Below, piece by piece: positions 17,081 to 23,440 of a stretch of DNA of 64,000 nt. This stretch comes from Leishmania mexicana MHOM/GT/2001/U1103 (lineage: Eukaryota; Euglenozoa; Kinetoplastea; Trypanosomatida; Trypanosomatidae). The number at the start of each line of letters is the position of its first letter. Position 1 is the stretch's first letter. The DNA lies in the NCBI RefSeq assembly GCF_000234665.1, contig NC_018316.1:1-64000 (forward strand). The letters are read 5' to 3'. The notes under the pieces are model-generated. The model saw only the letters and a program-made list of their open reading frames with translations. It was not told the DNA's origin and made no database searches. The translations under genes were made by a program, and so were the position numbers.

Positions 17081-17678
17081 TCCTGCAATGTTGGGACCAC
17101 GCCCCTCCGGCCTTTCGCTCCGTTTGCCGTTTCCTTTTTTCCCTCGGTTTTCTCATATCTTTTGCATTACAGAAGAGCCGATTGCCTGCTGGTTGGCGGC
17201 TACATGGGGCGGGGGTGAGGTGGTGAGGTGCCTTCATCGCAACGGCGACGGGGACTCTGGAGAGATGAGGAACGCCTCATTTTGGTTTCTTGTTGCACAC
17301 TTCGATCGCTAGAGCGAGCAGCGTGATGCTCGTATTTGATGATTTTGTTTCTTCCCTTTTAGATGTCGATGCCGAGCGCGCCCCGTACTCAAGGAAAGAG
17401 GCAGTATTTGGTAGCCAGATGGTATTCTCGCGTCTGTTTCACGAATCGCTGGGCATAGTTATCATGTCTCCGTCGCGCTCTTCTGCTTCGCCGATCCCTG
17501 GCTATCCCCGATGCCTTTTACTCTTCGATGCGACTGCAAGTCATCCCGACAATGCCATTTGCACAACCATGTTTGCTTCTACTTTCCCGATTCTTCTCCG
17601 TACTGTGCCGCCCTTGCCCTCTTCATGGCCATTTTTACATTTCGCAGGTGTTTTAGTTATATTTCACGACGTTCTGCG
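17081..17678. other. Intergenic/UTR spacer
   Basis: About 600 bases, pyrimidine-rich at several points. A CAG at 17645-17647 after a T-rich stretch is the likely acceptor for the next gene. The upstream in-frame ATG at 17511 encodes unlikely sequence. Confidence 0.45.
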
Positions 17679-19124
17679 ATGCGCCGTTTTACAGCGCGCC
17701 TCCAGCTGCTCACGTTTGAGACACTTGTTTGCGGGACTCATGGCGTGTTGCCGCCTCCGACACGTCTCGCTGCGGCATGTGCGCGCGCCAAGGAGGAGTT
17801 TGCATCGCAGTGCAGCACGAGCGCGCCGCCGCCAACGATGCTGACAACGGCTGTTGTGGCTACCCACCTGCTGAACAACAACCTCAGAGACGCCGCGGCA
17901 GTGCTTGTATCGCATCCCTGTCAGCAGCAGGTTCTGGAGGGAGTACGGGACTATGTGAGGCAACATCCTGGCGTGTTTTCGGTGTCTACGCTGACCGGCA
18001 TGGTAGAGGAGGCACGTTGTGTGAGTGAGGGCGCTGTGGCTACCTTTCTGCGCGCAGCCGTCGATGAGTTTCTTCACGGCTCATCCGCTGCATCTAGAGA
18101 GGGCGACGAGGCGGCTGCGTGGGATGTGCAGCGCGAGAACTTGCGCTCCCTCGTGCTGCGGCACATTCGCTTTTACCCTGTCTGTGTATCCTTTCTTCTG
18201 GGCTCCCTCTGCGCAGTAAGCCGAGGATGCGCAGGGGACCGCGAAGATGTCATCGAGGTAATGCAACTCGCCATGCGCGAGCGCTCGATGAATCCGCGGG
18301 ACTTCGGTGGTGTTCTGGATGTCGTGTGGAAATCAAGAGAGCCGCGGCGCGTCGCGATGATGTGGGGGTGGATGCAGCACACATCTGCCTGCTGGGACGT
18401 TCGCGCGGCCTCGATTGCCATCATGGCGTTTTCGGAGCTTCATCAAATGGACGAGGCGGTAGCGTGCATGCAGAAGCTTGCGGAGGCGGACTGTGACCCG
18501 ACGATCGACGCTCAGGTCGCCTTTGTAAGGTTCCTGGGGGCGCGAACACCATCCCTGCTTCAGTATGCAGCTCAGTTGATGCTTCACTGGCACCCCTCAG
18601 GCGAGCGGCTGTGGCGCGGAGAGGCGCAGGCCGTCGGAATGGAGCTGGTGAAAATCTGCTGCGCGTGCGGCGAGCGTAAATTGGCTGTGGAGATGCTCGA
18701 ACAGATGGTGGCGACGAATGCAGGTGTGCCAGCAGAGCTAGAGGCGTTTATGCTGCGGCCCGGTGCCGCTGCCCTCGGTGAGCATCACAGTGCATCGGTG
18801 GCTACGAGCAAGACGCTGCAGGAATTGTTCATTGACGTTCCGTTGCGCCTGCCCAACCTGGGAGAGCAACCAGGACTTGTCGGGCTTCTGCTTTCACTAG
18901 GCATGGCCACCAACCGCCTTCCAGAAGTGTACGATGCGCTGGAGAAGGCGTCGTTGACACCTGCCAACTTTCAAGGCGCGCTTGGCTGCTTTACGACAGG
19001 AAGTGTTGTGAAGGCGGCGAGTCCTGTCGCCGTGCTCGCCTGCGTGCGCGAGGCTGGTGCGCGAACGGGACATAAAATTCCTGAGGAGATGGAGTCGTGG
19101 CTGCAGCTAGCGACAGAAATGTAG
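17679..19124 (+). CDS. PPR-like helical-repeat protein, predicted mitochondrial
   Basis: A 481-aa protein made almost entirely of paired helices. The N-terminus (MRRFTARLQLLTFETLVCG) is basic, hydroxylated and free of acidic residues, a good mitochondrial presequence. Segments such as WDVRAASIAIMAFSELHQMDEAVACMQKLAEADCDPTI look like a pentatricopeptide repeat, and others (MELVKICCACGERKLAVEMLEQMVATN) are similar. PPR proteins are abundant in trypanosomatid mitochondria, where they bind RNA in ribosomes, editing or polyadenylation complexes. I cannot define the number of repeats or the specific protein. The ATG at 17679 follows the predicted acceptor at 17646-17647. Its 3' neighbour is the ligase relic. 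Confidence 0.7.
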   Translation: MRRFTARLQLLTFETLVCGTHGVLPPPTRLAAACARAKEEFASQCSTSAPPPTMLTTAVVATHLLNNNLRDAAAVLVSHPCQQQVLEGVRDYVRQHPGVFSVSTLTGMVEEARCVSEGAVATFLRAAVDEFLHGSSAASREGDEAAAWDVQRENLRSLVLRHIRFYPVCVSFLLGSLCAVSRGCAGDREDVIEVMQLAMRERSMNPRDFGGVLDVVWKSREPRRVAMMWGWMQHTSACWDVRAASIAIMAFSELHQMDEAVACMQKLAEADCDPTIDAQVAFVRFLGARTPSLLQYAAQLMLHWHPSGERLWRGEAQAVGMELVKICCACGERKLAVEMLEQMVATNAGVPAELEAFMLRPGAAALGEHHSASVATSKTLQELFIDVPLRLPNLGEQPGLVGLLLSLGMATNRLPEVYDALEKASLTPANFQGALGCFTTGSVVKAASPVAVLACVREAGARTGHKIPEEMESWLQLATEM

Positions 19125-19659: not shown

Positions 19660-22600
19660 CGGAGGATGGAGCTCTGCAGTGCGACTACGACTGCCGCCAA
19701 CGCTGGTCTGAGGCGGCTTATGGCACTTATCCGTGTCATTGTGTCGCACTGCTGCCTCTGCATACGTTCACCCTTTGCTCCCTCAGCACGAGTTTGCATA
19801 CGGGAAGACTCACGGCACGTCTTTTTCCTCTCCCTTCGCTGTCGTTTTGAGGCCCACGCCACCACAAGATGAGAGCGCAAGCGGAGTGTATACCACCTCG
19901 CGCACAACGGAAAGGCACTATGGCGTCGGACTCGATGAAGACCTTTGACTTTCCATGCCGCCAATTATCAGAGGTGTAATCACTGACCATCAAGCTAGGA
20001 GTTGTCGGTGAATTTCCTTCTCGCTGCGCCAGCGATGCCGAGGTCCCTCTAAAGTTCTTGCTTCCCAGGTACGGGCAACGGGTGTAATACACGCAGGACA
20101 AGTGGCACGTGCGCGCCCTTTCCATCGTCCTTTCAGTTACTGGAGACGCTATGCTAGACAAGCTCAAGAGCTCAGGGCGCATTACGGAGACAGCATGTGC
20201 CCACTTAAAGGACTCCGCTATCGTCGACGTCGAGGGAGAGGGTTGCGTGAGCATGAGGAAGTCGGACATCTTTCTCGAGGATGTGGCGGCGACTTGTGGC
20301 GAGGCGGAGCACATGGCACCCCTCTGATGTGTCTTTTTGTGGTCGCGGGCGAAAACGTAGTTTTGACCATGAGAGGGAGCTGAAGCAAGACCTGAGGTGG
20401 GGCGCTGGACTGTGTGTTGTGCTTCAAGGACTGCACCTGTGCGCCTATCAAGTGTTTCAGAGCTGTGCCAACGTGCAAGAGGTTGTGCAGCGCATACAGG
20501 CGAATCCTGGCAGTGTTGTAGGTGCAGTGCCTGCGACCGCATCAAGTGGGGGCACCGCCGATGAGAATACCGACGCAGTGGATGACAAGGCCAGCTGCGC
20601 GACTGTGCCCGCCAACGGGGTCGATATGGATATCAGCATTGGCATTCTGTTGACACTGTAGTGACTGCCCTTGCGCAGTCGATGGATCAGATGCTGAGCA
20701 AGTGCCCGGATGGGGCGGTTTCACAAGTGAGGCACGATGGATGGCGCACTCCCATTCACAAGCGCGGAAAGTCGCTCGGCTTCCGTTTTTTTTTCCTCTT
20801 ATAGCCCGCCCGAGGCCACTGCGGCTGTATAAGTACGCAGTAAGTGCTGCGGGCTATCCGCGCTGGCCAGCGCGTTGTCGATAGTGCGATGCGCATGCTG
20901 AATTTTCATCTGTCCCTCTCCCGTTTGGCACTCTCGGTAAGCGCAGGAGCACGCAGCTCAGCACCGCGTGCCGGCGTACGTTTTGGTTTGACGTGCTCTA
21001 CCGGAACGGTCGATCGCTCTTTAAAACGCCGCGGTACCTGCGGCGTAATGGGATGTGAAAGATGGTGCCATTTATTGGCAACCTGGTGACTTCCACGCTC
21101 TGCCCCGTCGAGGGCTGGCACGAGGAGCACGGAGTCGTGCTTTAGCAGCATCGGCGGCGAGCCATCGCCGAGGGCTCAGAAGAGCTTGCCATTAAAGACG
21201 GAAAGGGCGTGTATAAGCCGAATGCGCGCAAATGGTTGAAGAGCGAAAAGGTCGACCTCGGAGTCCTTGCAGGCTCTGCTGATCTGCTGGTGCTCGGGGC
21301 GTGGTACCGTAGCAGAGGCAAGGGCTTGCCAGTTGTCCATCTGTTCGAATGGACTGCCTTGACACCTCCGTTTCCGCCGACGCCCCTGAGCGGTACAAGA
21401 CGCTCTGCAAAGTACGGAATGCCCTCAACGATATCCAGGAGACGGCCATCACCCGTGCCTCTCGTACCCGCATGGTCGCCGCGTCACGTGGCATGGCTAG
21501 AGTGCCAATCGGCTAATCTGTCGGATGTGGGTCTGCGAGGCCGAAGCACAACAGATGTGAGGAAAATCGTCGGAGCAGAGCTGTAGGTCACCCAGACGCA
21601 CCCCTCAGGTATTTCAGCTCGTTTTCCGCGCACGCTTGTGCGTGCATGCCGACGAGGCAGTCTCCACGGCGTCAACCCTGCGCGAGCTGCATCACATTTT
21701 GCGTACCTGAAAAGATAATTTCATCTCTGTCGCGGTGTCTACCCACTTGCGCCTTGTGGACAGGTACGCGATGCTGCTGCAGGGCGAGAAGGACTCTTCT
21801 GCGGTTCCTCCACCATTTTCGACTTCGCGCAGCTATGGCGCAAGCGTGACGAGAAAGTTGCTCGGAGTCTCTCCTGAGACGTGTCGCAGGGCCACTCTAG
21901 TGGCGGTGTTGTAGGTACCGAAGGACGATGCCACCATCCCAAGCGTTCCGGGAACGGAGTTATTTGCCCTATTTCACACACTTTTGTGGTCCAGGGAGGG
22001 TGGCGTGCGCGCGGTTTCATCCCCCGGATCACGGATCTCTATGGCCCAATTTCTGGAAAGGCGGACGGGCAAGCGCCTCCCCGTCACCACTACCAACCAA
22101 CTCCATGGGACAGATTCCCTTTTCCGGGGTCAGGCCTGGTAAACGTATGGGGTGCGTGTTTCTCGAGGTCGTGTCTGCGCAGCGCTCGATGTTACCTGCC
22201 CAAGTGCCCTCAGATCGATCAGCGATCCCTAGAGGAGGTGCTCGCGGAGGCCTCGACGTATGCGCAGTGCAATGCCACCTTACTGCAGGTTGTGCTGCCG
22301 TCTGTGGGCAGGCGGGTGTCCACGTCTCGTGTGCTCCATCTCGTGGTGACCCTTAGCGCGCAGCGCAATGCTGCGAATAGCGTGTATGGTGTCTCACCGC
22401 CTAGCGGTGCGCCGCAGAGGACAGCACAGAAGGCGATCTGTCGTTGGAGCAGCCCTCGGTCTACCGATCCTCGCATACTCCCAAGACAATGACGCTGTCC
22501 TCCTTACTGCAGCGCTGCGGCACCATATCTACGACCAACGTTGGCGCGAGAAGTGGTGGATGATATCGCCTAGGACCTGTCTGATGTAGCGGTGGGGTAG

Positions 22601-23440
22601 ATAGTGCAAGCTAACCTGGCGTACATGCGTGGCCACTGTGTACACCTCGCCACAACGCTTGCTCTTACGGCGCCATGGACCCACCTCGTCCGCGTCGGTG
22701 ACGTCCCGCTGCCTTACCTGAAGGAGTTGAAGCGACACCTGACTGCAACTGCCAGCGCTGAGTGACCGCACGACTGCTTCTTGCGAAGGTGTACGCTGCG
22801 CAGCGAGGGTATTTGCTGGTTGGAGAGCTCGCGCCATACCGCCCGACTCTGGCGGCATGGTGTATCAGGCTGGCCGCTCAACTCGGCGCCGAGGTGCACA
22901 GCTCTTAGCGGGTGGTCGGGAGGCACACCACTACACTAACACTTACCGACGTCTGGGACGGCAGCTGATCAACCACGTACACGCTCAGTGGGGAGCGGGG
23001 TGGAGTCGCTTACTGCCAGTTGAAGATTTGCGCTGTCACGGCGGTAGTGCTGCCTCTGGACGCCTAGGTCTTTAGCCTGCTCGCAGGGGCGCAGACAGCG
23101 TTGATGCACTCGCCAGTGTCTACTGTGATGAACTCGGCGCCGATTTGACGAGCGCCGGGGATTATGCACAGCACGCTCTGCGCGCTCCGGACTCGGCTGT
23201 TGCCCGCAACGTTCCCGATCGATTCCCGGAGTCGATGTCATTGGAAAAAGGGCGTCAATGCGGGGCGGCTGGATCACTGCGCCGTCCCTGGGGCATACGT
23301 CTCGACTTCGTTCTGGTGCGACCTCACTGAGGAAGCTGTGAACGCGTGTTCAGCTGGCGCTTCCGATTCCAGTGAGTGCACTGATACCATGTCCGATGGA
23401 TCCTCGAGCGCTGCCACTTACCGCGACGCGAGCGGCTAGC
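19660..23440 (+). pseudogene. Decayed ATP-dependent DNA ligase, ligase III-like
   Basis: No intact frame survives, but ligase segments appear in the right order across shifting frames. Near 19670 an N-terminal DNA-binding fragment (LRRLMALIR, then YVHPLLPQHEFAYG). At 20109-20327 MLDKLKSSGRITETA. At 20360-20655 KQDLRWGAG, then CAYQVFQSCANVQEVVQRI. At 20661-20775 KCPDG, then motif I as VRHDGWR, with the adenylated Lys read as Arg. Near 20878 motif III as VVDSAM. From 20921 to 21360, in one frame with two stops (TGA 21056, TAG 21143), PFGTLG, motif IIIa FDVLYRNGRSL, motif IV EELAIKDG and motif V KWLKSEK. At 21571-21710 the OB-fold end VGAEL, a stop, then GISARFPR (motif VI). BRCT-like debris follows near 22855 (LAAQLGAEVHSS) and 23265 (RLDHCAVPGAYVS). 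PFGTLG, KCPDG and the VVQRI segment match ligase III best; the outer limits are approximate. Confidence 0.82.

Follow-up and report, generated by a model that had tools for sequence, protein, structure and literature searches.

Human DNA ligase III (LIG3) contains one BRCT domain and has XRCC1 as its partner. In the extracts of published accounts drawn on here, Trypanosoma rangeli is said to lack LIG3, XRCC1 and PARP (PMC4169256) and Leishmania major to lack PARG and PARP, PARG being present in both T. cruzi and T. brucei (PMC3680488). LIG4 is given as absent from trypanosomatids though Ku is retained (PMC6635534, PMC8716037), a state described as an anomaly (PMC6635534) and stated also for Leishmania (PMC4912120, PMC12578213). 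The stretch analysed (the window) comprises the first 64 kb of Leishmania mexicana contig C12 (NC_018316.1, positions 1 to 64,000), and positions 19920-23439 of it were found to hold what we consider, at a probability of about 0.94, to be a full-length unitary pseudogene of LIG3, inherited vertically and decayed by substitutions, stops and indels. That the relic derives from LIG3 is near certain, and no ligase is made from it.

The motifs of an ATP-dependent DNA ligase lie on the plus strand of the window, in order and across all three frames, with stops between them. This arrangement had been described in an earlier sequence-only reading of the same DNA, and it was recovered both by motif reading and by frame-tolerant alignment. 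The exchange of the motif I lysine for arginine, also described there, is seen at 20730, and the KCPDG, PLPFGTLG, AYQVFQ...VVQRI and GISARFPR blocks align with both the human and the Leptomonas seymouri LIG3.

A frame-tolerant Smith-Waterman program was written for unbiased comparison, with dinucleotide shuffles as the control. Over positions 19900-22000, human LIG3 scored 309, the LIG1 of L. mexicana 98, human LIG4 95 and the LIGk-like protein of L. mexicana 43; across 60 shuffles the scores against LIG3 averaged 38 and peaked at 49, and those against LIG1 averaged 40.5 and peaked at 53. The alignment with human LIG3 extended from 19935 to 21631, with 155 of 521 residues identical. When the piece spanning motifs III to V was searched alone against the PDB, with stops read as X, DNA ligase 3 was returned first (E 8.3e-11), ahead of LIG1 (0.014) and LIG4 (0.091). 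The Pfam ligase core model PF01068 matched 20912-21241 (E 2.2e-7), above the cut-off of the model and with stops inside the match.

The whole genome (32.03 Mb in 545 contigs) was searched with PF01068, which found four places: LIG1 on contig C29 and a LIGk-like gene on C26, both open, the relic in the window, and a broken place on contig C8. As this core is common to all the ligases and LIG1 and LIG4 both beat the shuffles, the relic could in principle be a decayed duplicate of LIG1, LIG4 or a kinetoplast ligase. The scores of 98 and 95 are above chance because the ligase core is shared, and they are to be set against 309 for LIG3, the placement of the relic within the LIG3 clade, and macrodomain and BRCT remains that are collinear with those of the L. 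seymouri LIG3. An origin from LIG1, LIG4 or LIGk was rejected on the scores and the tree, and it can be given next to no weight. Since the frame-tolerant scores, the PDB matches and the tree placement agree, the relic is assigned to LIG3 rather than to LIG1 or LIG4, as the sequence-only reading had held.

The closest relative found was a 'putative DNA ligase' of L. seymouri (P0121, 1231 amino acids, E 1.6e-46), the best of 33 proteins with E<=1 among 2175 candidates, followed by P0122 and P0123. That search had a length limit of ~1231 amino acids which could hide longer LIG3 proteins, therefore the lack of a species from the list is no evidence that it has lost the gene. The frame-tolerant alignment with P0121 ran from 19920 to 23403 and took in residues 1-1227 of 1231, with a score of 1559 (maximum of 61 in 25 shuffles) and 493 of 1143 residues identical; the relic starts at Met1 of P0121. 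When all six frames of the genome were searched with P0121 by HMMER, pieces not being joined, 11 matches with E<=1 were obtained. Eight of these were collinear at C12:19920-23079 (best E 3.0e-52, 49% identity), and the other three fell on LIG1, on the C8 place and, weakly (E 0.115), on one further site. No intact copy of LIG3 was found elsewhere in the assembly by the PF01068 and P0121 six-frame searches. The collinear alignment and the genome-wide matches together indicate that the relic is full length and is the sole LIG3 copy found in the genome.

Two further protein searches were made. The read-through of the relic, used as a query against 8000 candidates with a limit of 1.75 times its length (1092 amino acids), found no protein at E 0.001; the limit left out the two longest relatives, and P0123, which at 574 amino acids was within it, was missed. 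A profile of human LIG3 matched 1751 proteins, and no kinetoplastid was named in the best 120 of these.

In a tree of 22 rows (IQ-TREE, midpoint root), the relic was sister to the L. seymouri LIG3 with support of 100/100, on a branch of 1.6 compared with 0.18. The frameshift-aware search and the tree, both of which the sequence-only reading had proposed, gave LIG3 as the best match and L. seymouri as the partner of the relic. These two proteins formed one clade with P0122 and P0123 (100/100), within the LIG3 group (99/99) and apart from the animal clade (99/99). The relic here and the intact LIG3 in L. seymouri together imply that an ancestor had LIG3 and that it was lost within this family. 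The proposal that an ancestral enzyme had been lost in the lineage is borne out by the intact copy in this relative; the same copy shows that LIG3 is not missing from every trypanosomatid, which corrects the accompanying view that these organisms rely on ligase I and two kinetoplast ligases.

Alternatively, the line of Leishmania and Leptomonas might have acquired LIG3 horizontally, either from an animal host or from a virus, and lost it thereafter. The finding of two close relatives alone besides L. seymouri (P0122 and P0123) is compatible with such a gain, as is the survey, in the extract cited above, that calls LIG3 missing in T. rangeli (PMC4169256). The separation of the four-member clade from the animal clade speaks against it, and the macrodomain is common to the LIG3 of Acrasis and to protist-like LIG3 proteins. 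A viral origin was rejected, as the canarypox ligase scored 292, compared with 1559 for L. seymouri. Horizontal transfer is therefore considered improbable, and vertical descent within the kinetoplastids is the simplest reading.

Compared with P0121 the relic has 15 frame changes and 16 stops. Among 87 positions that are invariant in nine intact LIG3 proteins, 86 align and 55 of the 86 are kept (64%, interval 53-74%); among 251 that are invariant in the three closest LIG3 proteins, 250 align and 150 are kept. Mutation was simulated on the codons of seven neighbouring open frames, and 64% retention corresponded to about 0.2-0.25 substitutions per site (about 0.14-0.31), an estimate that is rough, with one transition bias and a choice of alignment that favours matches. 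The simulation yielded 17.5 stops at a distance of 0.20 and 22.4 at 0.25; with 16 observed, the stop count is near the neutral expectation. The extent of decay fits the earlier remark that it was recent enough for homology to be read by eye.

Indels in homopolymers are common assembly errors. The frame changes were read from the assembly alone, and an intact LIG3 gene broken solely by errors of sequencing or assembly would show such changes. By contrast, most of the changes behind the 16 in-frame stops, the loss of the catalytic lysine and the 31 altered residues among the 86 invariant ones are substitutions, which indel errors would not produce, and the number of stops is close to the neutral expectation. 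Assembly error was rejected on the substitutions at invariant sites, and scarcely any probability attaches to it. Both neighbouring genes are on the plus strand, so the remnant is probably still transcribed, and it could still act, either as a non-coding RNA or by way of a small peptide encoded in one of its open parts. Decay is seen from one end of the remnant to the other, and the stop count is close to that expected under neutrality, which makes a retained role of this kind highly improbable.

Several observations weigh against a LIG3 pseudogene at this locus. The scores of LIG1 and LIG4 are, like that of LIG3, above the shuffles; the piece at 20341-20649 matched LIG3 in the PDB weakly (E 0.028), this being the sole ligase that it found; and the N-terminal (PF04675) and OB (PF04679) models were silent at the relic at E<=1, matching LIG1 alone in the genome. 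The tree program flagged the long branch of the relic and an odd composition in nine rows, including those of the relic and L. seymouri, and the root was a midpoint root. The G+C content of the relic by codon position (0.61/0.50/0.65) overlaps that of genes nearby and provides no independent indication of decay. Single frame changes may be errors of the assembly from which they were read, and L. seymouri is represented here by its protein sequence alone.

The features of the locus are collected in Table 1. The sequence-only reading had placed the relic at 19660..23440; its end agrees with the stop codon, whereas homology begins at the ATG and not at the start given. Of the neighbours it had named, the downstream Plus3-RING gene was confirmed by Pfam and the upstream PPR-like gene was not.

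Table 1. Positions in the window of the LIG3 relic, its parts and its neighbours, and the second ligase relic on contig C8
Feature	Position	Strand	Remarks
LIG3 unitary pseudogene, full length	19920..23439	+	ATG at 19920, stop at 23437-23439
N-terminal DNA-binding domain (DBD) relic, P0121 residues 1-200	19920..20526	+	103/200 aligned residues identical
Nucleotidyltransferase relic (motifs I-V), P0121 residues 240-445	20635..21247	+	96/204 identical; PF01068; best PDB match DNA ligase 3
Motif I catalytic Lys codon, now Arg	20730..20732	+	P0121 position 272
OB-fold relic with motif VI (GISARFPR), P0121 residues 446-600	21248..21689	+	79/146 identical
ALC1-like macrodomain relic, P0121 residues 690-830	21945..22384	+	59/141 identical; profile match to macrodomain structures
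Poorly preserved segment, P0121 residues 880-990	22520..22831	+	27/102 identical; weakest part of the alignment
BRCT relic, P0121 residues 991-1085	22832..23078	+	45/79 identical; Pfam BRCT at 997-1070 in P0121
Upstream neighbour, 537-amino-acid open frame	17511..19124	+	no Pfam family at E 0.01
Downstream neighbour, 293 amino acids	24379..25260	+	Plus-3 domain and RING finger
Second ligase relic	C8:335992-337257		between a 1935-amino-acid open frame and a fumarase-like gene (by eye)

A Pfam scan of P0121 found the DBD, nucleotidyltransferase, OB and BRCT domains. The zf-PARP finger was absent at E 0.1 from the six LIG3 proteins scanned (P0121, P0122, P0123, P0129, P0125 and P0144, of which P0123 and P0125 are partial); it appears to be a feature of animal LIG3, so that its lack is no ground for excluding the relic. 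The segment between the OB fold and the BRCT region of eight intact LIG3 proteins (P0121, P0122, P0125, P0129, P0138, P0143, P0144 and P0149) was made into a profile, which matched macrodomain structures including that of CHD1L/ALC1 (E 6.6e-20). Pfam gave no macrodomain for these eight proteins, and the decayed macrodomain of the relic had not figured in the sequence-only reading. The segment at 22520..22831 is BRCT-like by eye and by the position of the Pfam BRCT in P0122, and the Pfam scan of P0121 gave no BRCT in residues 880-990. Two BRCT-like ends had been described in that reading, one more than vertebrate ligase III has; more than one such segment is not unusual, as the intact P0122 has BRCT at 879-950 and BRCT_2 at 975-1051 and the LIG3 of Acrasis has several BRCT matches.

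In a living orthologue the DBD, nucleotidyltransferase and OB core would seal nicks, followed by the ALC1-like macrodomain and one or more BRCT domains. Such a LIG3 most likely served PARP-driven single-strand-break repair and back-up end joining, and its macrodomain may have bound poly(ADP-ribose) (PAR) at the break, recruiting LIG3 directly; it counts against this recruitment role that it is drawn from a domain match. Loss of the PAR system would have left LIG3 without a recruitment signal and released it from selection, with LIG1 in the nucleus and LIGk in the kinetoplast presumably taking over ligation.

Relics of other repair genes were detected in the same genome. At E<=1 the model of the PARP catalytic domain had a single match, containing six stops, at C8:1642029-1642610 (E 2.2e-13), and that of the regulatory domain a single match, containing one stop, at C8:1641639-1641959 (E 6.9e-15). 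The whole relic (C8:1641133-1642619; WGR, regulatory and catalytic domains) scored 392 against human PARP1, with 155 of 480 residues identical, 7 frame changes and 8 stops, the maximum in 60 shuffles being 48. PARP2 and PARP3 share the WGR, regulatory and catalytic domains with PARP1. The domain matches strongly suggest a relic of PARP1-3 type, the comparison having been made with PARP1 alone. Two collinear PARG pieces at C23:56797-57335 had E values of 0.13 and 0.07 in the genome search and of 0.003 and 0.0025 against Pfam, with a joint score of 67, where 60 shuffles did not exceed 59, and these are taken with moderate confidence as a PARG relic (C23:56773-57329). Two weak matches were seen in open frames on the minus strand, one PARG-like at C34:1103087-1103359 (E 2.7e-4; score 60, maximum 54 in 30 shuffles) and one Macro-like at C20:1289414-1289605 (E 0.01). 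The XRCC1 model PF01834 had no match in the genome, but it was equally silent in all 14 controls, so that this result says little about XRCC1.

The second ligase relic, on contig C8, was reached in the genome searches by a LIG3 query (E 3.2e-5) and by a LIG4 query (E 9.6e-5). Its core scored 111 with human LIG4, 95 with LIG1 and 73 with human LIG3 in the frame-tolerant comparison, and 109, 112 and 124 with other LIG3 proteins. One piece found LIG4 (E 2.1e-5) and LIG1 (8.8e-5) in the PDB, LIG3 being unlisted, and on the same piece PF01068 ranked third (E 0.16) behind two unrelated families; another piece had no ligase match in the PDB. The N-terminal half gave no signal (41, with a maximum of 43 in 40 shuffles). 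The BRCT remnant scored 69 against human LIG4, with a shuffle maximum of 44 (100 and 40 shuffles), while five LIG3 C-termini scored below their own shuffle maxima, and all four of its PDB matches at E<=10 were LIG4 (best 0.031). The core is ambiguous between LIG4 and LIG3 and the BRCT end is LIG4-like, and the place is held with fair confidence to be a LIG4 relic. At ~339300 on this contig ~100 bases read N at the fumarase-like gene. Ku domains were found on C29 and C8 in open frames of 811 and 1018 amino acids, both matching without stops; the Ku genes of L. mexicana are given, in the extract cited, as LmxM.29.0340 and LmxM.08_29.1050 (PMC8716037).

The PAR writer, eraser and ligase may have gone together, because the intact LIG3 carries an ALC1-like macrodomain. 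We tentatively propose, at slightly short of even odds, that a whole PAR-dependent repair module (PARP, PARG and the PAR-reading macrodomain LIG3) broke down in Leishmania, along with LIG4, once its line had separated from that of Leptomonas; the proposal is weakened because the C8 relic is less clearly LIG4. If it were true, the loss could be dated and ordered gene by gene from wrecks that are still readable, the state of Ku without LIG4 in Leishmania would be recent, and microhomology end joining in Leishmania would run without PARP and LIG3. The relics of LIG3, PARP, PARG and LIG4 turn 'absent' into lost but readable, with the order, date and cause of loss testable by genome comparison, and the LIG3 relic would bear on which ligase completes end joining in Leishmania.

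The DNA ligase family is known already, and the presence and loss of LIG3 in this lineage appear to be new. No report of a trypanosomatid LIG3, or of relics of LIG3, PARP, PARG or LIG4, was found among the matches listed from the open-licence literature, supplements excluded, and in the main text of the L. seymouri genome paper 'ligase' occurs once, for a ubiquitin ligase (PMC4552786).

Compared with known ligases, the relic shares the PF01068 core with the LIG1 (C29) and LIGk-like (C26) genes of its own genome, which have open frames and far lower scores, and the catalytic core with human LIG3 (PDB 3l2p) at the identity given above. Most animal LIG3 proteins among the matches listed have a zf-PARP finger by Pfam, whereas the L. 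seymouri LIG3 has a macrodomain and no finger. The LIG3 core and an ALC1-like macrodomain region, as in the lineage of the relic, are found together in the LIG3 of Acrasis kona (P0129) and in the protist-like P0143 and P0144, with C-terminal BRCT domains by Pfam scan in P0129 and P0144; the Acrasis protein is intact but distant, with 301 of 1014 residues identical to P0121. The nearest likeness is to L. seymouri P0121, which shares with the relic, collinearly, the order of DBD, nucleotidyltransferase, OB, macrodomain-like and BRCT parts, but its frame is intact and it has the catalytic lysine, in contrast to the 15 frame changes, 16 stops and motif I arginine of the relic.

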